A stretch of DNA of 44,113 bases from a bacterium (GTDB taxonomy: Bacteria; RBG-13-66-14), in NCBI GenBank assembly GCA_035528375.1, contig DATKYS010000033.1:1-44113 (forward strand), given 5' to 3'. How positions within the stretch are numbered: position 1 is the first letter of the stretch; each line of letters begins with the position of its first letter. Below, piece by piece: positions 4,499 through 40,762 of the stretch. The notes beneath the pieces were generated by a model, which was given only the letters and a program-made list of their open reading frames with translations, made no database searches and had not been told where the DNA came from. The translations under genes were made by a program, and so were the position numbers.

Positions 4499-7400
4499 CT
4501 ATCCCTCCCGCGCCGGCAGGCTGATGGTGAACGTGGTCCCCTCGCCGGGGGCGCTTTGCGCCTCCATCATACCATCGAAACTCTGGACGATGCCATAGGA
4601 GACGGAGAGACCCAGGCCGGTGCCCTTCTTGCCTTTGGTGGTGAAGAAGGGATCGAAGATGTAGGGCAGGTTCTCCGGGGGGATGCCCAGACCTGAGTCG
4701 GAGAAGGAGATGACCACCCGGCGGTCCGAAAGACGGGTGTGGACACGCAGGGTGCCGCCGGAGGGCATGGCGTCCTGGGCGTTGGTCACCAGGTTCAACA
4801 GCACCTGGCGCAACTGGTCCGGCGACACTAAAACGCCGGGCAGGTCGTCGGCGAGGTCTTTTTCCACCGCGATGCCCAACTTTTCGAGCTGGATGCCCAC
4901 CAGCATCAACAGGTCCTCCACGAGCTGGTTGACGTCGGTATGCTCGAGGTAGGCGCTCTCGGGCCGGTAGAAGTCCAAAAGACCGGAGATGATGCGGGCG
5001 ATGCGCTGAACCTCCTCCTCGATGACGCCGAGGGTCTTGTAGGGTTCGCCGGAGGGATCGAGGTCCCCCCTGGCTATCTGGAGGTAGTTCGTGATTATCC
5101 CCAGGGGGTTGTTGACCTCGTGGGCGATGTCGGCGGCGAGCTTGCCGGTGGCGGCCAGCTTCTCCGACCGCGTGAGGGCGAGGCGCAGGTCCTCGAGCTC
5201 GCGGATGTCGCGGCTCACGGCCACGCTGCCGGTGAACCGGCCCTTTTCGTCCACCAGCGGGGAAACCGACAGCTCCACCGTGATGGGCGAACCGTCCTTC
5301 GTGCGCAGGTCCACCTGGCGAACGGTGGAGGGGCGGCCCTCGTCCAGGCGCCGGGTCATCTCGGCCACCGTGTCCCGGTCGCGGTCGAAGTAGAAGATCC
5401 CGATGGGCTTCCCCCGGACCTCGTCCTCGGCGTAGCCCATGGCCAGAGAGGCGGCGCGGTTGAGGATCTCCAGCCGGCCCTCGGCGTCCGCCACGGTCAC
5501 GAGGTCCGGCGAGGCGTCAATGACCTCGCGCAGATACCGCCGGGCCGCCGACAGCTCCGCCGTCTTGGCGTCCACCTCCCGCTCCAGGTCGGCCGAGTAG
5601 TTCGCCAGCGCCTCCTCGGCCTTCTTGCGCTCCGTGATGTCCGTGATGAGCGAAATCATGTACTGGATGGACTTATCGCGGCTGATGAAGTCTATGTTCA
5701 TCTCAACGGGAATCTGATCCCCGGACATCTTGAACAGGGTCAGCTCGGTGGGCTTTCCCGAGAAGATGGCCAGCTTGTCCTGGTACACCTGCGTGTCGAG
5801 CGTCTCCCCCAAAAGCTCGCCCATCTCCCCCGGCTCCTCGGGAACGATGAGGTCGTAGAACCTCTTCCCGACGAGCCCCTCCTCCGCGAAGCCCAGCATC
5901 TGCAGGAGAGCCGGATTCGCCATGGTCACCTCGCCCATGCGGTCGGAGAGGCAGATGCCGACGGGGGATTTGCTCCAGATGGAGCGGTAGCGCTCCTCCG
6001 ACTCGCGCAGCAGCTCCTCGGCCTGCTTGCGCTCCGTGATGTCGCGGACGATGATCAGATCGGCCGGCGCCCCCGAGTACTGGATGAGCCCCACGTTCAG
6101 CTCCAGGGGGACGGTGTGCCCGTCGGAGTGTATCCCGGTGACCTCGTAAACGGAGGGCACATCCTCGCCCCGCATGCGCCGTTCGTAGAGGTCGGCGAGC
6201 CTGGAACGGTCCGCCGGCACGATGAAGTCGGAGAAGTCCTTCCCCAGCATCTCCCCGGAATCGTACCCGGACATGGCCAGCATGGCCGTGTTCACGAAGA
6301 CGAACCGGAAATCCTGGACGATGACGACCCCGTCGGTGGCCTGCTCCACCAGGCTGCGGTACTTCTCCTCGGACTCCTCCAGGGCCTCCAGATACTGGGA
6401 GCGTTTGAGCGCCACCGAGGTCAGTCGGGCGAAGACCCGCACCTTGGCCAGATCGTCGTCGGTGAAGACCCGGTCCAGGGCGTGGATGAGGAACACTCCC
6501 AAAAGGGTATCGCCGTCCATTATGGGCTCGCCCATGACCGATTCGCGGTGCTCCTCCGAGTCGTCGGTCCCCTCGATGTGTACCACGGGGCGGTCGGGGT
6601 CGCAGAAGTTGGAGTAGGCGCCGCGCCGGAGCTGGGCCACCTTCCCGCCCAGCCCCACCCCCAGGGGGACCCGGAACGCCATCAACTCGTCCCGCGAGGT
6701 GGGGGCGTTCGTATAGATGGGCGCGAGCACGCCCTCCTCGGGATCGAACAGCAGGATGTTGCAGAAGTGGGCGTTCATCAACAGCCGGGCGTTGTCGGCG
6801 ATCTTGGCCAGCACCTTCTCCAGGTCGGTCTCGTCGGCCAGGGTCATCGTGGTCTCGTAGAGCGTGCGGTACGTGTCCTCCGAGCGCTCGAGCGCCTGAT
6901 GGTTCTCCGCCCGCTTGATGGCGATGGAGGCCAGACGGGCGAAGATGGAGAGCTTGCCCAGGTCGCCCTCGTCGTAGAGCTTGCCCTCGGCGCCGATGGT
7001 GATGACGCCCAGAAGGGTGTCGGAGTCCATCACCGGCTCGGAGATGACCGACTCGATCGAGTCCACCTCCCCGTCGGTGCCCTCGACGTGCACCACGGGG
7101 CGGTCGGTGTCGGTGTAGTTGGAGTAATTGCCGGCGCGCTCGAGGGCCACCTTGCCGGAAAGGCCGACCCCCATGGAGACCGTGAAGCCCAGGATGGCCT
7201 CCCGCTCCCGGGGCGCGTTGGAGTAGAAGGGCACGAGCACCCCTTCGGACGCGTCGAAGGTGAAGTATGTGCAGTAGATGGAGTCCAGGAGCCGGGTGGC
7301 CTGGTCGCAGATCCGGGAGATGATTTTGAAAAGGTCGGTCTCGTCGGCCAGGGTGAGTGTGGTGTCGTAGAGCCGGTGGTAGGTATCCTCGGACTCGGCC

Positions 7401-10400
7401 AGGGCCTCCAGGTTCTCGGCGCGCAGGACGGCTATCTCGGCCTGCCGGGCGAAGATGGAGAGCTTCTCGACGTCCTCCTCGGTGAAGACGTCGTCCTCCT
7501 TGTTGATGCTGATGACGCCGATGACCCGCCCGGAGTCGAACATGGGCACCGCGAGCACCGATTCACGCAGGTCAACCTCATCGCTGGTGCCGGGCACGTG
7601 GACGGAGAAGTCGTCGGAATCCCCCAGGTTGAGGCAGAGTCTCTCCCCGGTCTGGGCCACCCGACCGGAGACGCCCTCCCCCAGGGGGATATCGAAGTCC
7701 ATTATCTCCTCCGTCGCCGTGGGGTCGTTGCAGTAGATGGGCAGGAGGACACCGCGCTGGTCATCGAGGCGGTACACGGTGCAGTCGGACGCCCTGGCCA
7801 GCGCCGACGCCTGGTCGGCGATGACCTTGATCACCTTCAGGGGATCGGTCTTGTCGGCCAGGGCCAGGGTGGTCTCGTACAGACTGCGGTACGTCTCCTC
7901 GGAGCGGACCAGGTCCTCGGATTTCCGGGTCCTCTTCACCGCGATCTCCGCCTGGCGGGCGAAGACGGTCAGCTTCGTCAGGTCGTCCTCGGTGAATACG
8001 GCGTCGAACTTGCCGATGGTGATGACGCCCAGCACGCGCTCGTCGTCGAACATGGGCACGGAGATGAGCGACTCCCGCTCGTCAACCGTCGCGTCGGTGC
8101 CCGGGATGTGGACCGAGATGGCCTTCTCCGGGTCGCCGGGGTTGGCGAACATGCCCACGCCGGAGAGGGCCACGTGTCCCGAGAGCCCCTCGCCGAGGGG
8201 TATCGTGAAGTCCCTGAATATCTCCTGGTAATCCTGGCGGGTGGAGTAGATGGGCCTGAGCACCGACCGGCCTGAGTCCACCAGGAAGAAAATGCACTTG
8301 CGGCTCCCGAGCATGATCGAGGCCTTGTTCGCGATGACCTCGATCACGTGGAGGAGCTCGGTGGAGTCGGCCAGGGCCAGGGTGGTTTCGTAGAGGCTGT
8401 GGTACGTGCGCTCACTGGCGGCCAGCTCCTCGATGTTCTTGGTGCGCTTGACGGCTATCTCCGCCTGACGGGCAAAAACGAATAACTTCGCAAGGTCTTC
8501 GTCCGTGAAGGAGCCGGTGAACTTGCCCAGGGTTATCACGCCCAGGACCTTCCCGACGTCGAACATGGGCACCGAGATCAACGATTCGCTCGAATCCTCC
8601 CCCTCGTCGGTGCCCTCGACGTGGACCGAGACGTCGTCCACCTCACCGGCGTTCAGGTACCGGCCGACGCCCGACTCGGCCACCTTGCCCGAGAGCCCCA
8701 CGCCCAGGGGCACCTCGAAGCCCATGATGATGTCGCGGTAGTCGGGCCGCGTCGAGTAGATGGGGGTGAGCACATGCCGGTCGGCATCCAGGAGCAGGAA
8801 GATGCACTGCTGGGCGCCGAGAAGACCGGTGGCCTGGAGGGCGATGACGCCGATGACGTCGGTGAGCTCGGTGGAGTAGGCCAGGGCCAGCGTGGTCTCG
8901 TAGAAGCTCTTGTAGGTCTCCTCGGAGCGGGCCAGCGCCATCTCCGTCTTCTTGCGGTCGGTGACGTCCTCGGTGATGATGACCACCCGGCTCACCGCGT
9001 CCCCCTCGTCCCGGAGGGGGTAGAAGTGCTGGGAAACCCACCGGGCACCGCCGGACCGCGAAGGGACTATCTCGACCTCGGGGATGTGGAGGTAGTCGCT
9101 ACCCTCGTAAACGCGACGGACCTCGGGGAGCCACTCGCCCAGGTACTCATCCTCCTCGTCGAACTTGAGCTCCGTCCGCTCCCTTTTAAAATCGCGGCCG
9201 ATCTCTTCCTCCGTGACGGCCCAGATGCGCCTCCACGCCTCGTTACAGGAGAGCAGCCGGCCGAAACGGTTCCGCACCGACACGCCCAGGGGCGAGCGCT
9301 CGATGAGCGCCCGGCTGAACTCCTCCGACTCGCGCAGCGCCTCCTGGGCCAGGACGCGCTCGGTCACGTTCTCCAGGATGCCGTCTATGTGCCGATCCTT
9401 CCCCCGCTCGTCCCGGACCAGGGTGGCGTTGAGCGAGGCCCAGAAGGTGGAGTCGTCCTTTTTCCGCTGCTGGACGCAGAAATCGGTCACGAAGCCCTTC
9501 GTCGTCAGCGACTCCACGAACTCTCGGCGCTGCCGGGGGTCGGTGTAGAAGTCGCCCACGTTGACCGACAGCATCTCATCCTCGGAGGCGTAGCCGAACA
9601 TGGCGTAGAGGGCCGGGTTGGCCGACAGCACCTCCCCCTCGGGGCTGGTGCGGAAGACGCCCACGGGGATGTTCTCCTGGAGGGAGCGGTAGCGCTCCTC
9701 GGAGTCGCGCAGGGCCACCTCGGTCAGTTCCTCCTGGGTGATGTCCCGGATGACGGTCACCACCCGGTCCACTCGGTCACCCTTGAAAATCGGTATCTTG
9801 CGGGTCTCGGTGATGATCTCCCGCCCGCCGACGACGTTCTTCTCCTCGGTCAGGAGCGTTCGGCCGCTGGAGAAGACCTCCTTGTACTCGGCCCTGACGC
9901 TCTTCGGGAGGAACCCGAAGGCCCCGAAGAAGCTCTTCCCCGTCACCACCGGGTCCAGGCCCAGCTCCTCCACCCAGCGCGTGAGTTTCGTGTTGACCAG
10001 AGTGATGCGAAGCTTGGAGTCCACGACGTGGATGGCGTCCCCCATGGAGTCCAGGGTCGTGCGGTACTGTTCCTCGGATTCCCGCAGGTGTTCGTGGATA
10101 GCCTTGCGCTCGCTCTGGTCCACCAGGATGCCGTCGTGGAAGACTATCTCCCCGTCGGCGTCCCGCACCGCCCGCACGTTGATCTGCACCCAGAAGGTGG
10201 AGCCGTCCCGGCGGAGCATCTCCGCCTCGAAATCGGCCACCACATCCTTTTCGGTCAGAGCGTCGAGGAGCTCGAGCCGCCGCTCCGGCGAGGCGTAGAG
10301 GTCTACCACCCCCACGTCGAACATCTCGTCGGGGGAGGAGTAGCCGAACATCCTCACGAAGGCGGGGTTGACGGAGATGACCCGGCCGTCGTGCGTCACC

Positions 10401-13400
10401 CGGAACACCCCCACCGGGATGTTGTCCTGGAGGGAGCGGTAGCGCTCCTCGGACTCACGGAGCGCCTCCGACGCCCGGACGCTCTCCGTGATGTCGAAGC
10501 AGTTCCCCAGGTAGGCGGCTCGGCCCCCGTAGGGGATCGGCCGGGCACCGACCAGGAGGACCACCGTTTCGCCGTCCTTCCTCTTGATCCGCATCGTGTA
10601 CCGGCTGGGGACTTGGGAGCCCGATTTGCGGGCCGCGTCCCGTCGGGCGAGGAGATCCCGGTCCTCCTCGTGGACCAGCTCGCCGGTGTCCAGGGTCAGC
10701 AGTTCCTTTTTGGTGTAGCCGGTGATTTCGGCCATCTCGTTGTTGACGTAGAGGAAGTTGGCGTCCCGGTAGATGTAAACCCCGACGATGGCCTCCTCGG
10801 AGAGAACGCGGTAGCGTTCCTCGGACTCGCGGAGCGCCTCCTCGGCCAGCTTGCGGTCGGTGATGTCGCGGGACACGCCGACGATGGCGGTGGCCTTCTT
10901 CCCCGACTCGTCGTACACCACGGTGCGGGCGTCGGACAGCCAGCGATACTCGCCGTCCGCGTGGCGCAGGCGGTACTCGATGACCGGATTCTCCACCGCC
11001 CCGCGGGCGTTGTCCCGCAGCGCCTCCGCGTCCGCCACCACCACGGCCGTGTCGTCGGGGTGGATCCGCTTCGCCAGCTCGCCCGACTTCGCCATCTCGA
11101 CGAACTGCTCGACCCCGTAGCCGAGGATTTTCACCAGCGCCGGGGAGAGGTACGCGTAGCTCTCATCCTCCAGGTTCACCCGGTAGAAGAGGTCGTTGGT
11201 GTTTTCCACCAGGAAGCGGTATCTCTTCTCGGATTCGCGGAGCGCCTCCTCGGCCCGCACGCTCTCGGTTATGTCCATGCAGTTGCCCAGGGTGGTCGCG
11301 CCGCCGCCCCCCCCGAAGCTCGGAAGATGCCGCACCCGGAGCTCGACCACGCGGGTCTCGCCGTCTTTGCGCAGGATGTGCATCTGATAGCTGGATGGCA
11401 CCCCCTCGCCTTTGGCCCGCACCTCGTTGAGCCGGCGGATGAACTCCTGGTCCTCCTCGGGGACGACGTCCCAGGGATTCATCTTCAGGAGCTCTTCCCG
11501 GCTGTAGCCGGTTATCTCCGCTAACTTGGGATTCACGAAGACGAAACGGTCGTCCTTGAATATATAGACGCCGACGAGCGCTTCCTCGGTGTAGGTGCGG
11601 TAGAGCTCCTCGGAAGCCGCGAGGGCCTCCTCGGCCCGCTTGCGCTCGGTGATGTCGTTGCCCGCTCCGATGAAACGCCGAATCCAGCCGTCCGGGTCCA
11701 CCAGGGGGATGAGGCGGATTTCGAAGGATTTTCTGCCGGCCCCCTCGCCGAAGCTGGCCTCGTTGGTGTGCACCTTTCCCAGCTTGGCCCACTCGAAGGA
11801 ATTCCTGATTCTCGCGCATTCATCCGGCGGATGCAGGGCGGATACGGGCCTCCCGTTGTAGTACTCGGTGGTGTGCCCCTCCACCGCGGCGAAGGCGTCG
11901 TTGACCTGCTCGTAGTAGAGCTCCCCGTCCTCCCCCTCCACGACCGACCACAACAGGACGTCCACCCCCTCGAAGAGCGCCCGGAGCTCACGCAGGTGCT
12001 TGTCCCGATCCTCCTCGGCCCGCACATGTTCGGTGATGTCCACGCAGTTGCCCAGGCTGGCGACGCCCGAGTCGTCGAACCGGAGCGAAGCGGAGGAATG
12101 CGAAGCAAAACCCGGGAGCCGCTGCGCCCGGAGCTCGAGCACCCGCACCTCGCCGTCGGAGCGCCGGATGTGCATCCGGTATGTGTTGGGCACCTCCTCG
12201 CCCCGGGCCCGGGCCTTCTCCCGCTCCCGCAGGTGACCGTCGCGGTCCTCCTCCAGCACGATGCTCATGGGATCCATAGCCAGGAGCTCTTCCCGCGGGT
12301 AGCCGGTTATCTCCTCCATCCGGTGGTTGGCGAAGACGAAACGGCCCTTCTCGAAGATGTAAACACCGACGAGCGCCTCCTCGGTGAAGGTGCGGTAGAG
12401 CTCCTCGGACTCCCTCAGGCGCTCCTCGGCCAACTTGCGCTCGGTGATGTCGCGGGTCACCCCGACGATGGCGGTGGCCTTCCCCGCCTCGTCGAGGACG
12501 ACCGTCCGCGAATCCGACAGCCAGCGGTACTCGCCGTCCGCGTGGCGCAGGCGGTATTCGATGGCGGGTTTTTCCCGCGCACCCCGCGCGTTGTCCCGCA
12601 GCGCCGCCGCATCCTCCAACAGCCATCCGAGGTCGTCGGGGTGGATCCGCTTCGCCACCTCGCCGGTCTTCGCCATCTCGATGAATTCCTCGGCCGTGAA
12701 GCCGAGGATGCTTTTCATCGCCGGGGAGAGGTACGCGTAGCTCTCGTCCTCCAGGTTCACCCGGTAGAAGACGTCGTAGGTGTTCTCCACCAGGAAGCGG
12801 TATCTCTGCTCCGATTCCCTCAGGCGCTCCTCGACCTCGACCCGCTCGGTGACGTCCTCGACGGTGCCCTCGTAGTAGAGCGTCTTCCCCTTCTCGTCGC
12901 GCACGGCCCTGGCGTTCTCGCGCACGTGGAGGTTCGCGCCGTCGAGCCGCTTCCAGACCGATTCCAGGCCGCGAATCTCCCCGCCCTTCTCCACCACCCG
13001 CTTGAAATCCGCCCGGGAGTGGCCCGACTGGTACCCCTGCTCCAGGTCCCGCCGGGACAGCTCCTCGAAGGAATCGTAGCCCAGCATCCGCACCAGGGCC
13101 GGGTTGGCCATGAGCACCCGCCCGTCGGGGGTGGTGCGGTAGATGCCGATGACGTTGTTTTCGAACACGCCCCGGAAGCGCTCCTCGGACACCCGGAGCT
13201 CGGCGGCGAGGAGCTGCTGTTCGACGGCCTTCCCGACGATGTCGGAGCAGGCCTTGATCAGGTTAAAGTCGTCCCGGCTGAAATCGAAGGGGGCCATGAC
13301 GGTGATCGAGCCGGTGATCCGCCCCGCCGAATCGGTGAAGGGGATGCCCAGGAAGGACGTGTTGCCGAACTTCTCCGCTATCGGGGCTGCGAAGGGCCGC

Positions 13401-14224
13401 AGGGGGCTTTTTTTCTCGACCAGCGCCTCGACCAGGGTACGGATGTCCGTCTGGTTGACTGGCGAGTCGGGCTCGAAGCCCAGGCCGTGGACCGTGGGGT
13501 GGCCGGTGCGGATGGTCCGGGCGATGACGCTTTCGCAGTCGAGGGGGATTTTCCAGTTGCTGAAACGCCGGCCGGCCAACTTTTCACCGAAGCGCAGGAT
13601 GGCCGACGCCACCCGGTGCGCCCGGACGACGAGGCATCGCCCCTCGTCCTCGACGAGGTTCACGCTCGAGTAGGTGGGGAATATCTCCGCGAGCCGCTCA
13701 ACGGCGGCGTCCAGGACCTCCTGCACCGACCCCATGGTGAAGAGCTCCCGGGAGAGGGCGGCCAGGACGGCGCTCTGCCTTACCCGGCGCTCCAGGGCCT
13801 CGGCGCCCGAAATGTCCTCCACCAACCCGTCGAAAACCGTTCGATCCCCGGCGGCCGACAGGGGCTCGAGGGTGAGGGACGCCCGAAGGGTCCCGCCGTC
13901 GGTCCTCTTCAGCTCGGTCCCGTACCCCCCGACCCCCTCGCCGGACCCGAGCCGCTCGAAGAGGTCCTTCGCGCGCCGGGGATGGGCCAAGAGGCTCCGC
14001 AGCTTGACCCCGACGAGGTCGCCGGGGTCCGTGCGGCCGAGCATCCGGGCCAGGGACCGGTTGGCCCACGAAATCCCCCCGTCCGCGTCGCAGCGGAAGA
14101 CGCCCTGCGGGATGACGTCGCAGAGGGATTCGAGGCCCGAGTCCGCCCCCCGGTCACCGAGCCCGGACCGGAGATCTCCCAGCTCGGCGATGAGTTGGGC
14201 CTTGGTCTTCTTCTCGTCTAGCAT
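4499..14224 (-). CDS. Giant soluble multi-PAS/multi-GAF sensor histidine kinase (3241 aa)
   Basis: I count about 15 PAS and 6 GAF domains before one kinase core. The order is PAS1 (~30-150), GAF1 (~165-335), PAS2-PAS12 (~345-1765), GAF2-GAF6 in tandem (~1770-2620, ~170 aa each), PAS13-PAS15 (~2625-3020), HisKA with phospho-acceptor H3035 (DIAHEVNNPLG), and HATPase with NLVTNAQDAM and a GTGLGLSVSYG box near the end. Linkers repeat the 'RESEERYR' helix typical of PAS chains. PAS3-PAS4 closely resemble PAS7-PAS8, PAS9 resembles PAS11, and the five GAFs resemble each other, so the protein grew by block duplication. No membrane segment or signal peptide is visible, so it should sense cytoplasmic signals. 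The ATG at 14224 has AAGGTG upstream. It is the first gene of a unit with the receiver-kinase and FemAB genes. Confidence 0.95.
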   Translation of the reverse strand: MLDEKKTKAQLIAELGDLRSGLGDRGADSGLESLCDVIPQGVFRCDADGGISWANRSLARMLGRTDPGDLVGVKLRSLLAHPRRAKDLFERLGSGEGVGGYGTELKRTDGGTLRASLTLEPLSAAGDRTVFDGLVEDISGAEALERRVRQSAVLAALSRELFTMGSVQEVLDAAVERLAEIFPTYSSVNLVEDEGRCLVVRAHRVASAILRFGEKLAGRRFSNWKIPLDCESVIARTIRTGHPTVHGLGFEPDSPVNQTDIRTLVEALVEKKSPLRPFAAPIAEKFGNTSFLGIPFTDSAGRITGSITVMAPFDFSRDDFNLIKACSDIVGKAVEQQLLAAELRVSEERFRGVFENNVIGIYRTTPDGRVLMANPALVRMLGYDSFEELSRRDLEQGYQSGHSRADFKRVVEKGGEIRGLESVWKRLDGANLHVRENARAVRDEKGKTLYYEGTVEDVTERVEVEERLRESEQRYRFLVENTYDVFYRVNLEDESYAYLSPAMKSILGFTAEEFIEMAKTGEVAKRIHPDDLGWLLEDAAALRDNARGAREKPAIEYRLRHADGEYRWLSDSRTVVLDEAGKATAIVGVTRDITERKLAEERLRESEELYRTFTEEALVGVYIFEKGRFVFANHRMEEITGYPREELLAMDPMSIVLEEDRDGHLREREKARARGEEVPNTYRMHIRRSDGEVRVLELRAQRLPGFASHSSASLRFDDSGVASLGNCVDITEHVRAEEDRDKHLRELRALFEGVDVLLWSVVEGEDGELYYEQVNDAFAAVEGHTTEYYNGRPVSALHPPDECARIRNSFEWAKLGKVHTNEASFGEGAGRKSFEIRLIPLVDPDGWIRRFIGAGNDITERKRAEEALAASEELYRTYTEEALVGVYIFKDDRFVFVNPKLAEITGYSREELLKMNPWDVVPEEDQEFIRRLNEVRAKGEGVPSSYQMHILRKDGETRVVELRVRHLPSFGGGGGATTLGNCMDITESVRAEEALRESEKRYRFLVENTNDLFYRVNLEDESYAYLSPALVKILGYGVEQFVEMAKSGELAKRIHPDDTAVVVADAEALRDNARGAVENPVIEYRLRHADGEYRWLSDARTVVYDESGKKATAIVGVSRDITDRKLAEEALRESEERYRVLSEEAIVGVYIYRDANFLYVNNEMAEITGYTKKELLTLDTGELVHEEDRDLLARRDAARKSGSQVPSRYTMRIKRKDGETVVLLVGARPIPYGGRAAYLGNCFDITESVRASEALRESEERYRSLQDNIPVGVFRVTHDGRVISVNPAFVRMFGYSSPDEMFDVGVVDLYASPERRLELLDALTEKDVVADFEAEMLRRDGSTFWVQINVRAVRDADGEIVFHDGILVDQSERKAIHEHLRESEEQYRTTLDSMGDAIHVVDSKLRITLVNTKLTRWVEELGLDPVVTGKSFFGAFGFLPKSVRAEYKEVFSSGRTLLTEEKNVVGGREIITETRKIPIFKGDRVDRVVTVIRDITQEELTEVALRDSEERYRSLQENIPVGVFRTSPEGEVLSANPALYAMFGYASEDEMLSVNVGDFYTDPRQRREFVESLTTKGFVTDFCVQQRKKDDSTFWASLNATLVRDERGKDRHIDGILENVTERVLAQEALRESEEFSRALIERSPLGVSVRNRFGRLLSCNEAWRRIWAVTEEEIGRDFKRERTELKFDEEDEYLGEWLPEVRRVYEGSDYLHIPEVEIVPSRSGGARWVSQHFYPLRDEGDAVSRVVIITEDVTDRKKTEMALARSEETYKSFYETTLALAYSTELTDVIGVIALQATGLLGAQQCIFLLLDADRHVLTPIYSTRPDYRDIIMGFEVPLGVGLSGKVAESGVGRYLNAGEVDDVSVHVEGTDEGEDSSESLISVPMFDVGKVLGVITLGKFTGSFTDEDLAKLFVFARQAEIAVKRTKNIEELAASERTYHSLYETTLALADSTELLHVIEVIANKASIMLGSRKCIFFLVDSGRSVLRPIYSTRQDYQEIFRDFTIPLGEGLSGHVALSGVGMFANPGDPEKAISVHIPGTDATVDERESLISVPMFDDERVLGVITIGKFDAVFTEDDLTKLTVFARQAEIAVKRTRKSEDLVRSEETYRSLYETTLALADKTDPLKVIKVIADQASALARASDCTVYRLDDQRGVLLPIYCNDPTATEEIMDFDIPLGEGVSGRVAQTGERLCLNLGDSDDFSVHVPGTSDEVDLRESVLAVPMFDSGRVIGVISINKEDDVFTEEDVEKLSIFARQAEIAVLRAENLEALAESEDTYHRLYDTTLTLADETDLFKIISRICDQATRLLDSIYCTYFTFDASEGVLVPFYSNAPREREAILGFTVSMGVGLSGKVALERAGNYSNYTDTDRPVVHVEGTDGEVDSIESVISEPVMDSDTLLGVITIGAEGKLYDEGDLGKLSIFARLASIAIKRAENHQALERSEDTYRTLYETTMTLADETDLEKVLAKIADNARLLMNAHFCNILLFDPEEGVLAPIYTNAPTSRDELMAFRVPLGVGLGGKVAQLRRGAYSNFCDPDRPVVHIEGTDDSEEHRESVMGEPIMDGDTLLGVFLIHALDRVFTDDDLAKVRVFARLTSVALKRSQYLEALEESEEKYRSLVEQATDGVVIVQDFRFVFVNTAMLAMSGYDSGEMLGKDFSDFIVPADRSRLADLYERRMRGEDVPSVYEVTGIHSDGHTVPLELNVGLIQYSGAPADLIIVRDITERKQAEELLRESEERYRSIWSKSPVGICLSDRMGEVTMANPALLQMLGFAEEGLVGKRFYDLIVPEEPGEMGELLGETLDTQVYQDKLAIFSGKPTELTLFKMSGDQIPVEMNIDFISRDKSIQYMISLITDITERKKAEEALANYSADLEREVDAKTAELSAARRYLREVIDASPDLVTVADAEGRLEILNRAASLAMGYAEDEVRGKPIGIFYFDRDRDTVAEMTRRLDEGRPSTVRQVDLRTKDGSPITVELSVSPLVDEKGRFTGSVAVSRDIRELEDLRLALTRSEKLAATGKLAADIAHEVNNPLGIITNYLQIARGDLDPSGEPYKTLGVIEEEVQRIARIISGLLDFYRPESAYLEHTDVNQLVEDLLMLVGIQLEKLGIAVEKDLADDLPGVLVSPDQLRQVLLNLVTNAQDAMPSGGTLRVHTRLSDRRVVISFSDSGLGIPPENLPYIFDPFFTTKGKKGTGLGLSVSYGIVQSFDGMMEAQSAPGEGTTFTISLPAREG

Positions 14225-34826: not shown

Positions 34827-34855
34827 TTGACCGCCCCGCCGGCGCGGTCTATACT
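34827..34855 (+). promoter_or_regulatory. Putative promoter of the alpha/beta hydrolase gene
   Basis: TTGACC (34827-34832) and TATACT (34850-34855) are spaced by 17 nt. Transcription would start near 34862, leaving an unusually long (~164 nt), GC-rich leader with several short inverted repeats before the ATG at 35026. I recognise no known riboswitch in it. Confidence 0.6.
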
Positions 34856-35841: not shown

Positions 35842-37371
35842 ATGTCCATAGTTGACAAGGTCAAGGGCTCCATCCTGCGCCGGGTTTACGACCGGCGCAT
35901 GCGCGAGCTCGGGGAGGTGTTGAAAAACCCCTGGCGCTGCCAGGAGGAGGCGTTCCGGGTCATTTTAACGGCCGCGTCGAGCACCGCCTTCGGCCGCGAC
36001 CGGGGCCTGACGGCGGGGATGACCCTGGCCGAGTTCCGCCGGCGCGTCCCGTGCGCGCCCTACGAGGCCTTCGATCCCTACATCGGCCGGATGCTGGCCG
36101 GGGAGCGGTCGGTGCTCTGGCCGGGGCTGGTGCGCGAATTCTCCCTGACCAGCGGCACCACCGCGGCGCGCGGCAACAAGTACATCCCCTTCACCCGGGG
36201 GGTGTGGCTGTCGAACTCCAAGGCGGCCCGGGACAGCCTCTTCTTCCACGTCCGGCGGCGCGGCGGCGACTTCGGCATCTTCACGGGGAAGATGCTCTTC
36301 CTCGGCGGGACCACGACCCTGAACAGGGAAGGCCACGGCGTTTATTCCGGCGACCTCTCCGCCCTCACCATCCGCCGCCTGCCGCTCCTCTACCGCCGCT
36401 ACTACCTCCCCGGCTACCGCGTCGGCGCCATCCCCGACTGGGAGGAAAAGATTGACCGCATCGCCCGGATGGTCCGGGGCGTGAACCTCACCTTCATTTC
36501 CGGCATCCCCTCCTGGGTCCTGGTGCTCCTGGATAAAATCCGCGCGGACCACGGAAAACCCGAGGCCACACTCAGGGAGATTTTTCCCAATTTCCGTCTC
36601 TTAATCAGCGGCGGGGTGAACGTCCACCCCTACCTGGACCTCTTCCGCCGGACGGTCGGCCCGGAGGTGGACTTCGCGGAGACCTACCCCGCCTCGGAGG
36701 CGTTCATCGCCGTGCAGGACGGCGCGATGGGGAACGGGATGCTGCTGGAGGTGGACGGGGGGATTTTTTACGAGTTCGTCCCCGCCGGGCGCATCGAGGA
36801 GGACGACCCCCCGCGCCTGGCCCTCCCCGAGGTCAAAACGGGTGAGAACTACGCGATTGTGTTGACCACCCCCGGCGGCCTGTACGGCTACATCCTGGGC
36901 GACACGGTGCGCTTCGTGAGCACCGACCCGCCACGGCTCGTCGTCACCGGGCGGACCAAGCACTTCCTGTCGGCCTTCGGGGAGCACCTGATCGTGGAGG
37001 AGGCAGAGGAGGCGGTTCGGACGGCGTGCGAGCGGACCGGCGCGCGGGTCCTGGACTTCACCGCCGCCCCGGTCTTTCCGGAAAAAAGCGGGGAGCTGCC
37101 GCGTCACGAGTGGCTGGTCGAGTTCGAGACGCCGCCCGAGGACTTGACGGCCTTCGAGCGGATTTTAGATGAGCGCCTCGGGGAGCTCAACGCGGACTAC
37201 GCCGTCCACCGGCGCGACGACGCCAGCCTCCTGCCGCCGCGGGTGACGGTCCTGCGACCGGGGAGTTTTTACGCGTTCATGAAGGCGCGGGGGAAGCTGG
37301 GAGGGCAGAACAAGGTCCCGCGATTGAAGAACGACCGCGAATTCGCGGAAATGCTCCACGAATTGCAGTAG
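35842..37371 (+). CDS. GH3-family acyl-adenylating enzyme (auxin-responsive GH3-like)
   Basis: The 509-aa protein belongs to the GH3 branch of adenylate-forming enzymes, which in plants join amino acids to acyl acids such as jasmonate or auxin. Motifs seen are the phosphate-binding LTSGTTAARGNKYIPFT (~99-115), the ETYPASEAFIAVQ block, the ligand-carboxylate segment GENYAIVLTT, GGLYGYILGDTVRF, and the hinge and C-terminal domain beginning VTGRTKHFLSAFGEHL. Bacterial GH3 proteins are widespread but poorly characterised. It lies behind an alpha/beta hydrolase that could act on the same conjugate. A usable but distant GAGAG precedes the ATG. Confidence 0.88.
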   Translation: MSIVDKVKGSILRRVYDRRMRELGEVLKNPWRCQEEAFRVILTAASSTAFGRDRGLTAGMTLAEFRRRVPCAPYEAFDPYIGRMLAGERSVLWPGLVREFSLTSGTTAARGNKYIPFTRGVWLSNSKAARDSLFFHVRRRGGDFGIFTGKMLFLGGTTTLNREGHGVYSGDLSALTIRRLPLLYRRYYLPGYRVGAIPDWEEKIDRIARMVRGVNLTFISGIPSWVLVLLDKIRADHGKPEATLREIFPNFRLLISGGVNVHPYLDLFRRTVGPEVDFAETYPASEAFIAVQDGAMGNGMLLEVDGGIFYEFVPAGRIEEDDPPRLALPEVKTGENYAIVLTTPGGLYGYILGDTVRFVSTDPPRLVVTGRTKHFLSAFGEHLIVEEAEEAVRTACERTGARVLDFTAAPVFPEKSGELPRHEWLVEFETPPEDLTAFERILDERLGELNADYAVHRRDDASLLPPRVTVLRPGSFYAFMKARGKLGGQNKVPRLKNDREFAEMLHELQ

Positions 37372-37504: not shown

Positions 37505-39145
37505 TTACCGGCTCACTACCAACCGTTTTGTCAATGTCCCCGCGCCGGTTTCCAGGCGGTAGAGGTACACGCCGGAGGGGATTTCTTCGCAGTTCCAGGA
37601 AACCTCGTGCCGCCCCGCGGTCTGCACCGAATCCACCGGCGTCGCAATCCGCCTCCCCGACAGGTCGTAAATCGCCAGCACGACCCGGCCGTCGGCGGGA
37701 AGCGAGTAGGCGAAATTCACGGCACCCCGCGCCGGGCTGGGGTAGGCCGCGTCGAGGAGGAACGTAAACGCCTCTTCGGGAATCGTCACCGCCTCCGTGG
37801 GGCCGAAGCGGCTGACCGTCCCCTCCGCGTCAACGACTTCCAGCCAGTAGATATAACTCCCACCGGGCTCCACGCCGCGGTCGAGGTACTTGGATGAATC
37901 GCCGGGCATCAACCCGGAGATTGCCACCGGCTCTACAGCGCCCCGCAGGACGCGCACTCCGGCCGGTTCCTCGCCATCGAACGACCACGTCAGAAGGACG
38001 CTTCCACTACTCAAAGATGCTGATAAATGAGCTAAATCAACACCGATATCGTCTCTCCATTCTGCGAACATAAGGTTGCCATCAGATTCGTTGAAAAAGG
38101 CAATCCTAGCATATTCGGTGTTTGGATCTAAAGCAATAGAAGCACCTCGACCCACGTTACCTGTACTATAAACAGTTGATTTATCCCATGATGCTCCGTT
38201 ATAAAAAGCGCATATTAGGTCACCGTTCTCAACATCATAGTAGGTTACTCTAGGGTAACCTGAACTGTTGAAAACAATTGTCCTCGAACCATTTGAGTTA
38301 AATTCGCCGTCCGTATCTACTACCTCAGTAGTAAAATCATCACCGTCGAAAGTTGCTAGTCTTATTTCTGCTATACTACCTCCCTGTGTTTCGCTATTCC
38401 AGATAACTGATGGATAATTTGTTAAAGGATTTATCGCAATAGAAGTATATGTAAGGAATGATGTATCACCTGCTTCGCCTACCTGATAAACAGCCCAGGA
38501 ATCTGTACCATTCCTTTTAGCTGCACGTGGCCTACCCCAATCATAATCAAAATAGGACACCCAAGCATCGTCTTCGCTATCAATAGCAATTGAGCAATAT
38601 TCACCCTTTATGTAAGAGGGCTCGATAGTTTCGAATTGCCAGCTTCCTCCACTAAAATATGCGTAATTTGGATCGTAATCAGTACCGCCCACATAATAAA
38701 CCACATTCGGCATTCCAGTTGAGTTAAATGCTAAGTCTTGGTAGAACTCGCTATCTGCGTCAATAGTTTCTATATTCCATTGACTTCCTGACCAAGTTGC
38801 ATATTTTAAAGCCCAGTTAGTATTGTCCCAATATGCTATGCTTGGTCTCCCATTTGTCGGATTAATATCAATTGATGGTAACCTCCCGACATTTGCCGAA
38901 TCGTCAACCGTAATTAAATCCCATTCATTTCCATCGTAATATGCGTAACGAAGCTCACCATACCATGTATCTGTATCCCTCTTTGTGTATGCGATATGAT
39001 AGTCACCATTATTATCAATAGCCAGAGAGACCCATCTACCAACTTCATCGCCGTTTGTATCAATTGTGGAAATTGACCAACCTTCGCTGGCGTAAGAAGC
39101 CTGAAAGGCAAGTATGGCGATGAGCATAATGAAAAGCTTCTTCAT
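37505..39145 (-). CDS. Secreted propeller-like protein with type A T9SS C-terminal domain
   Basis: The 546-aa protein has a signal peptide (MKKLFIMLIAILAFQASYA). Residues ~22-375 contain about seven repeats of ~45-50 aa with the phrase 'SIAID....P...Y.......L.YA...G..W', as in beta-propeller surface proteins. Residues ~375-455 look like an FnIII domain. The last ~85 residues (from LDAAYPSPARGAVNFAYSLP to TLTKRLVVSR) are a typical T9SS type A sorting domain, removed or used for anchoring during export across the outer membrane. The N-terminal two-thirds is strikingly AT-rich (roughly 40% GC by eye, 38010-39140), whereas the FnIII and sorting part has the host's high GC. AAGGAG precedes the ATG by 5 nt. 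Its promoter carries a 19-bp homopolymer. Confidence 0.9.
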   Translation of the reverse strand: MKKLFIMLIAILAFQASYASEGWSISTIDTNGDEVGRWVSLAIDNNGDYHIAYTKRDTDTWYGELRYAYYDGNEWDLITVDDSANVGRLPSIDINPTNGRPSIAYWDNTNWALKYATWSGSQWNIETIDADSEFYQDLAFNSTGMPNVVYYVGGTDYDPNYAYFSGGSWQFETIEPSYIKGEYCSIAIDSEDDAWVSYFDYDWGRPRAAKRNGTDSWAVYQVGEAGDTSFLTYTSIAINPLTNYPSVIWNSETQGGSIAEIRLATFDGDDFTTEVVDTDGEFNSNGSRTIVFNSSGYPRVTYYDVENGDLICAFYNGASWDKSTVYSTGNVGRGASIALDPNTEYARIAFFNESDGNLMFAEWRDDIGVDLAHLSASLSSGSVLLTWSFDGEEPAGVRVLRGAVEPVAISGLMPGDSSKYLDRGVEPGGSYIYWLEVVDAEGTVSRFGPTEAVTIPEEAFTFLLDAAYPSPARGAVNFAYSLPADGRVVLAIYDLSGRRIATPVDSVQTAGRHEVSWNCEEIPSGVYLYRLETGAGTLTKRLVVSR

Positions 39146-39220
39146 GATGACTCCTTATGGCGGGTGTTGGTAACCGTTTATCCGATGCGCCGGGATGTTT
39201 CTTATAAGCTCATCAAATCT

Positions 39221-39253
39221 TATATAGCACGGGGGGGGGGGGGGGGGGGTCAA
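39221..39253 (-). promoter_or_regulatory. Homopolymer-containing, possibly phase-variable promoter
   Basis: On the minus strand TTGACC (39253-39248) is separated from TATATA (39226-39221) by 21 nt, most of which is the C tract at 39249-39231. Losing about four C residues would give the 17-nt spacing of other promoters here. The ATG of the T9SS cargo gene is ~75 nt downstream. Confidence 0.5.
39231..39249. repeat. 19-bp G (C on minus strand) homopolymer
   Basis: Nineteen consecutive G residues lie between the -35 and -10 boxes of the 39145 gene. Nothing comparable exists elsewhere in the window. Tracts this long are prone to slippage during replication and also to sequencing error. Confidence 0.9.
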
Positions 39254-39294
39254 GGGAAAAATGTTGAATATTTTAAAAGAATTTCCAGATATGG

Positions 39295-39317
39295 AAAAAC
39301 CGCCCTCCGAGGCGGTT
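39295..39317 (-). terminator. Terminator of the two-component gene pair
   Basis: On the minus strand AACCGCC pairs with GGCGGTT around a 6-nt loop and is followed by a short T-run. It lies ~85 bp after the NtrC-type stop, with one GAGGGG-type repeat in between. Confidence 0.55.
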
Positions 39318-39400: not shown

Positions 39401-40762
39401 CTACTTCAGGCCGTACTCGTTCAGCTTGCGGTGCAGTGTCCGCAGGCCGATGCCGAGCACCTTCGCGGTCAGCGTCCGGTTGCCCTCGTTCTTGGCCAGC
39501 GTCATGCGGATGACCTCGCGCTCGACCTGGCTCATGGTCCAGCCCACGGGGACGCGGATCATGGAGGAGGGCCGGATGGCGGCGACGCGGTCCTTTATCT
39601 CCGGCGGCAGGTCCTCCACCGTCAGCTCGGTCCCCCGGGCCAGCGCCACCATCCCCTCCACCGTGTTGGAGAGCTCGCGGACGTTGCCGGGCCAGTCGTA
39701 GGTGAGCAGGAGGTCCAGGGCGGCGGGCTCGACGCCGGTGACGGGCCGGTCGTGCCGACGGGCGGCCTGGGCGATGAAGCGGGAGATCATGGGCATGAGG
39801 TCCTCGGGCCGCTCGGTGAGCGGCGGGACGTATAGCTGGACCTTTTTCAGGCGGTAGTAGAGGTCCTCGCGGAAGCGCCCGGCGCGCATCTCCTCGGCGG
39901 GGTCCTTGTTGGTGGCGGCTATCAGGCGCACGTCCACCTGAAGCGTCTCCTCGCCCCCCACGCGCTCGAACCGCTGGTCCTGCAGCACGCGCAGGAGCTT
40001 GACCTGTGTGGCGTGGGGGATTTCGCTTATCTCGTCCAGGAAGAGGGTGCCGCCGTTGGCGCGCTCGAAGGCGCCGGAGTGCCTTTTCACCGCCCCGGTG
40101 AACGACCCGCGCTCGTGGCCGAAAAGCTCGCTTTCCAGAAGCCCCTCGGAGAGGGCGGCGCAGTGCAGCTTGATGTAGGGCCCGTCGCGGCGGTTGCCCC
40201 GGTGCTGGATGGCGTCGGCCACCAGTTCCTTCCCCGAGCCCGAGGGGCCGGTCACCAGGACGGTGATGTCGGTGCGGGCGAGCTGGTCCACCATCTCCAG
40301 GATGCGCTTCATGGGCGCGCTGGCGGCGATGATGCCCTCGTCGCCCAGCCGCTCGTCCAGCCGACCGCGCAGGGACTCCAGGTCCCGGCGCATCCGCCGG
40401 GTCTCCAGGGCGCGCTCTATCTGCAGCAGCAGCTCGTCGGGGTTGACCGGCTTGGTGAGGTAGTCGTAGGCCCCGACCCGCATGGCCTCCACGGCGCTCT
40501 GGACGGAGCCGTGGCCGGTGAGGACGATGACCGCCAGGTCGGCGTCGCGCATCCGGGCCCGGGTGATGAGATCCATACCCGAGCCCGAGGGGAGGACGAG
40601 GTCCACCAGGAGGAGGTCCACCTCGTTGACGGCCAGGGCCTCGCGGGCCTCCTCCACGTCGGCGGCGGTGAGGGTGCGGTATCCGGCGCGCCCCAGGGTG
40701 CGCTCCAGCGCCCGGCTCACCTCCGGGTCGTCATCAACGATGAGTACGAGCGGCTTGGACAT
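39401..40762 (-). CDS. NtrC-family sigma54-dependent response regulator
   Basis: The 453-aa protein has a receiver domain (acid pocket D10-D12, phospho-acceptor D54) and a sigma54-activating AAA+ domain. Visible motifs are Walker A GPSGSGKE, ESELFGHERGSFTGA (GSFTGA in place of the usual GAFTGA sigma54-contact loop), Walker B GGTLFLDEI, and the C-terminal Fis-type helix-turn-helix (NRTLTAKVLGIGLRTLHRKL). It should activate sigma54 promoters when phosphorylated by the kinase encoded 26 bp upstream. A Ser in place of the first Ala of GAFTGA is a known natural variant. Confidence 0.93.
   Translation of the reverse strand: MSKPLVLIVDDDPEVSRALERTLGRAGYRTLTAADVEEAREALAVNEVDLLLVDLVLPSGSGMDLITRARMRDADLAVIVLTGHGSVQSAVEAMRVGAYDYLTKPVNPDELLLQIERALETRRMRRDLESLRGRLDERLGDEGIIAASAPMKRILEMVDQLARTDITVLVTGPSGSGKELVADAIQHRGNRRDGPYIKLHCAALSEGLLESELFGHERGSFTGAVKRHSGAFERANGGTLFLDEISEIPHATQVKLLRVLQDQRFERVGGEETLQVDVRLIAATNKDPAEEMRAGRFREDLYYRLKKVQLYVPPLTERPEDLMPMISRFIAQAARRHDRPVTGVEPAALDLLLTYDWPGNVRELSNTVEGMVALARGTELTVEDLPPEIKDRVAAIRPSSMIRVPVGWTMSQVEREVIRMTLAKNEGNRTLTAKVLGIGLRTLHRKLNEYGLK

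Follow-up and report, generated by a model that had tools for sequence, protein, structure and literature searches.

Can a bacterium of a candidate phylum vary a surface protein through a run of cytidines in its promoter? The question is raised by a contig of 44,113 bp (DATKYS010000033.1 of assembly GCA_035528375.1), here termed the window, which is contig C33 of G000, a metagenome-assembled genome (MAG) of Candidatus Coatesbacteria that comprises 2.63 Mb in 144 contigs. On the minus strand of the window, at 39221-39253, a poly-C tract lies in the promoter of a gene that encodes a cargo protein of the type IX secretion system (T9SS). The evidence leans slightly towards the interpretation that the tract is a slippage-prone spacer of a sigma-70-type promoter and that this promoter drives the secreted, lectin-like beta-propeller cargo. 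It is directly seen that the tract is situated exactly between TTGACC and TGC-TATATA, that homologous tracts are unequal in length and that other promoters of the lineage have spacers of 17-18 nucleotides (nt).

Read directly, the minus strand from 39253 to 39221 is TTGA-C19-GTGC-TATATA, and the full context is TTTTTCCC-TTGA-C19-GTGC-TATATA-AG. The -35 box, TTGACC (39248-39253), takes in two of the 19 C residues of the tract (39231-39249); the last 17 C together with GTGC (39230-39227) form a spacer of 21 nt. A preliminary description of this DNA had reported the same arrangement and had estimated that about 15 C would bring back a 17-nt spacer; both points are borne out, as C15 gives 17 nt by simple arithmetic. 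The -10 box, TATATA (39221-39226), matches TATAAT in 4/6 positions, where the homologues display TATGTT. It is preceded by TGC (39227-39229), an extended -10 motif of the TGn type, and the GTGCTAT sequence is common to the homologous promoter on contig C51 that is described below. On its upstream side, the -35 box abuts a conserved block, TCAACATTTTTCCC (39254-39267; TCCACATTTTCCTC and TCCACATTTCCCC in the homologues), a possible UP element or activator site. A ribosome-binding site, AAGGAG (39151-39156), is found within a leader, CGCCATAAGGAGT..TCATGAAGAAGCT, that is also common to the C51 gene. All these features are on the minus strand.

The length of the tract is far above that expected by chance from base composition. 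It is the sole C or G run of at least 14 in the genome, where the next longest is 12; 18 runs of at least 9 and 11 of at least 10 are found in G000. The remaining C/G runs within the window are all of 8 or fewer, and there a run of at least 4 gains one more base in about 30% of cases or less. A chance run was rejected on the basis of the genome-unique length and these window statistics. Several C runs of at least 10 are at or near contig ends (G000 C30, C37, C75 and C140), and contig C181 of G003 (L070) ends in poly-C/G junk; long C runs are therefore probably under-counted in these assemblies.

The normal spacing in this lineage was assessed from TTGACN-TATAAT matches in five genomes of the family (n = 110). 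The mode is 17 nt (44/110), followed by 18 nt (24/110) and 19 nt (11/110); a 21-nt spacer was found once (1/110), a background level. TTGACC is a good -35 sequence for the lineage in this survey. The preliminary description held that five or six other promoters in the window all have 17 nt. This count was not reproduced, as a strict scan of the window detected one promoter (at 34827, spacer 17) and a relaxed scan gave a 17-nt spacer at two intergenic sites and 15-16 nt at others, but 17 nt does stand as the mode at the family scale. Ordinary promoters also retain their spacing. In a control, ordinary G000 promoters were compared with their best matches in G001-G003, and the spacer was equal in 36 of 40 pairs; the four unequal pairs are mostly doubtful pairings or differ by one nt. 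C-rich spacers are also found in ordinary promoters of the genus, and in one group of promoters the four species all keep a 17-nt spacer, even though one of them carries a C8 run.

The poly-C promoters vary in length where other promoters do not, because their spacers are 21, 10 and 14 nt against the equal spacers of most ordinary pairs; the comparison is among copies from paralogues and a sister species rather than among strains of a single species. On contig C51, G000 carries another T9SS-cargo gene (533 amino acids), which has the promoter CCACATTTTCCTC-TTGA-C8-GTGCTATGTT and the leader CGCCATAAGGAGTAGTCATGAAGAAGCT, with a spacer of 10. The counterpart parts at 39221-39253 are CAACATTTTTCCC-TTGA-C19-GTGCTATATA and the leader CGCCATAAGGAGTCATCATGAAGAAGCT, with a spacer of 21. 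In the sister species G003, the syntenic counterpart of the C51 site (contig C343) displays CCACATTTCCCC-TTGACC-A-C9-AAGC-TATGTT and a spacer of 14; both sites follow a ferredoxin-like gene (81% identical) and a glyoxalase-like open reading frame (ORF). The counterpart in G002 is interrupted by a gap of N. The three promoters were compared by hand, as a MAFFT alignment had misplaced the G003 -35 box. TTGAC, GTGCTAT and the ribosome-binding leader are kept in both G000 copies (C33 and C51), and the conserved block CACATTTTCC is found 5' of TTGAC in all three promoters. Matches to TTGACCCC...GTGCTAT at G000:C120 and G003:C281 were set aside, as these have irregular 17-nt spacers and do not belong to T9SS genes. 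Comparison with relatives had been proposed in the preliminary description as a check on its reading, and by this comparison the tract length is not fixed.

The gene downstream (37505-39145, minus strand) encodes 546 amino acids. Its identification as a T9SS cargo, also made in the preliminary description, is confirmed by a C-terminal type-A sorting domain above cut-off at residues 468-544 (37514-37744; PF18962, 7.8e-9; TIGR04183, 1.4e-10) and by SprA, which is encoded in G000 and scores above its curated cut-off. The reading frame is intact, and the N-terminus of the product resembles a signal peptide. The ectodomain, residues 20-364 (38054-39088), is modelled as an all-beta propeller with pLDDT mostly 75-90, and its best structural matches by Foldseek are the PLL/PHL lectins (E about 1e-12, TM-score by target about 0.7). 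With the cargo as query, no match was found in a PDB sequence search or in a GTDB contig search. Named relatives are Candidatus Coatesbacteria (RBG_13_66_14 and CSMAG_1439). The propeller half of the gene (to residue ~365) has a GC content of ~40% and the C-terminal half ~65%. The latter shares up to 74% identity with the tails of other G000 cargo; it appears that ectodomains have been exchanged on a shared sorting tail.

If the tract does act as a slippage-prone spacer, slipped-strand mispairing would often add or remove C residues. Each change in length would shift and rotate the -10 box relative to the -35 box and thereby set the level of transcription. The assembled C19 allele, with 21 nt, would be weak or off, and alleles of about C14-C16, with 16-18 nt, would be strong. 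The population would then be a mixture of cells with and without the surface protein, as with opc, porA and fetA in Neisseria.

The site itself is conserved, but the cargo is a variably present gene. The syntenic site can be recognized by the upstream neighbour, an NtrC-type response regulator gene (39401-40762, minus strand) with 97% identity to its G002 counterpart, and a GH3 gene lies at 35842-37371. Same-locus orthologues of the cargo were sought in four genomes. In G001, the regulator and GH3 genes are adjacent and the cargo gene is absent. A different gene follows the regulator in G002, and in G003 another secreted gene does so, with the promoter TTGACA-17-TATATT. In G004, a homologous cargo is found directly after the end of a regulator gene, with TAGACA-18-TATCCT and no homopolymer in the promoter. 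A terminator-like hairpin (39298-39317, minus strand; stem AACCGCC/GGCGGTT followed by a T-run; fold z = -4.0) is situated between the regulator gene and the promoter. A chimeric join at the tract is unlikely because the flanks are conserved: the flanking genes are adjacent in G001 and the C51 promoter matches both sides of the tract. Elsewhere in the window, 4499-14224 (minus strand) encodes a histidine kinase of 3241 amino acids; its PAS domains number about ten or more, and several GAF domains are present as well.

Several observations weigh against a slippage-prone switch. The length variation observed is between genes and species, not within one population. None of the homologous alleles (10, 14 and 21 nt) is at the 17-nt spacing, and therefore every assembled copy would be weak or inactive. 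At the syntenic position in G004, the homologue lacks the homopolymer altogether. The length C19 comes from the consensus of a metagenome assembly, and its exact value may be off. The extended -10 motif may also allow some activity at any spacing, with less dependence on the -35 box. The original proposal of a candidate phase-variable promoter thus holds in one part, the variable length among homologous promoters while ordinary ones keep their spacer; the on/off switching that it proposes remains a prediction, made less certain by the absence of a 17-nt allele and by the extended -10 motif. An unlikely, although not negligible, alternative is non-adaptive expansion, whereby the run became pure through the loss of interrupting bases and was lengthened by slippage, while the gene is dispensable and its promoter is decaying; length would vary without serving as a switch. 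The same lack of a 17-nt allele is consistent with decay, as are the C-rich spacers in ordinary promoters of this GC-rich genus and a cargo gene that G001 lacks at the site and whose place is taken by other genes in G002 and G003. However, ordinary C-rich spacers, even the one with C8, remain at 17 nt, and decay does not readily account for the TTGAC, GTGCTAT and leader sequences kept in both G000 copies or for the intact reading frame.

Promoters of the Bordetella fim type (PMC1891110) provide a precedent for another arrangement, in which the conserved block with TTGAC would act as a site for an activator or as a UP site, the polymerase would be recruited by the extended -10 and the tract would set distance and helical phase. 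The presence of the block CACATTTTCC in all three promoters and the TGC-TATATA motif fit this arrangement, and the spacers of the C8 and C19 promoters are 10 and 21, a difference of 11 bp that corresponds to roughly one helical turn. This phase argument is based on two points, however; the third allele (14 nt) does not fit the phase, there is no known activator and the -35 box is a good one for the lineage. The arrangement is considered improbable. Still less probable is that the tract length is an artefact of assembly or sequencing, or that the tract lies outside the working promoter and transcription starts from a promoter-like pair 5' of it, TTTCCA-16-TAAAAT (39270-39297, minus strand; detected by consensus match only). 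Such a pair does exist, and poly-C runs in these MAGs are often near contig ends, as with the poly-C/G junk at the end of G003:C181. Yet the -35 sequence of the pair matches in only 4/6 positions, the tract is internal to a contig of 44 kb, flanked by genes that are adjacent in G001, and a homologous C8 tract occupies the equivalent place in the paralogous promoter. A slippage-prone spacer remains the favoured interpretation.

A poly-C spacer is also found elsewhere in the family. In G005:C264 (L088, 1799), the sequence TTGACA-TCTA-C10-ATTT-TAGCAT, with an 18-nt spacer, is 5' of a lipoprotein-like gene (MYKFTLLATMIVILIMISGCDD...) and is an independent poly-C spacer of near-optimal length. The idea that promoters of the family generally contain poly-C was rejected, as TTGAC is present no more than 6 nt upstream in only three of 42 distinct C runs of at least 9 (0.3 expected), one of the three being contig-end junk. 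Many of the remaining runs are beside REP-like palindromes, in coding sequence or at contig ends. At L089 (G001:C157:4499), a gene for a secreted protein (MRKYLIATLAILVLAG...) has a C12 run that separates its ribosome-binding site from a putative promoter, and homologous genes are present on both sides. Short leader ORFs, which begin with ATG and encode MRK[SA]L[IL]L... ahead of a poly-G run, are found just 5' of secreted-protein genes at four places: L096 (G000:C73:76286) and, in G002, L068, L075 and L082 (C63:8361, C67:5005 and C87:9031). The runs are G10, G11, G12 and G13, so that the reading frame is unequal between copies; these ORFs are candidate frame-switching leaders.

Most known examples of promoters controlled by slippage come from host-adapted pathogens. 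In the collection of papers searched, none was found that links Coatesbacteria with phase variation or type IX secretion, and none that links type IX secretion with homopolymeric phase variation. It can be suggested tentatively, with the balance somewhat on the doubtful side, that a candidate phylum without a known animal host varies T9SS-exported lectin-like proteins via simple-sequence contingency promoters, and perhaps via poly-G leader ORFs as well. If true, this would add an environmental lineage and T9SS cargo to the known range of phase variation by promoter slippage, and uncultured bacteria of the environment would also make use of surface variation by contingency loci, perhaps for attachment or defence against phage.

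The locus can be compared with several known systems. For the product, the beta-propeller fold is shared with the Photorhabdus PLL/PHL lectins; identity is only 12-16%, the cargo has an added T9SS sorting domain, and sugar binding is putative. The preliminary description had regarded the high-GC lineage as a surprise. The GC content of the window is indeed 66%, but the surprise is weakened because Bordetella, itself a high-GC organism, has C-stretch promoters. These promoters, of fim2, fim3 and fimX (PMC1891110), also belong to surface-protein genes and comprise several paralogous copies of unequal length. In the fim type, an activator site replaces a functional -35 box, and the tract lies between this site and the -10 box; the Coatesbacteria locus does have a conserved upstream block, yet its tract directly adjoins a good -35 box, TTGACC, and there is no known activator. 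In Neisseria, porA, fetA and opc have homopolymers between the -10 and -35 boxes, and these are thought to affect how the sigma factor binds (PMC2791445); that of opc is given in this source as poly-cytidine (Sarkari et al., 1994, cited in PMC2791445). Switching and length-dependent expression are demonstrated there, whereas both are predicted for the Coatesbacteria locus, which is in another phylum and has a longer tract (19) and a T9SS-exported product. With a homopolymer directly between recognizable -35 and -10 boxes, unequal tracts among homologous promoters (C19, C8 and A-C9-AAGC) and a product whose surface exposure is predicted from the sorting domain and SprA, the locus fits the opc/porA/fetA type in both anatomy and comparison, and would probably represent this type in a new phylum and with a T9SS cargo.
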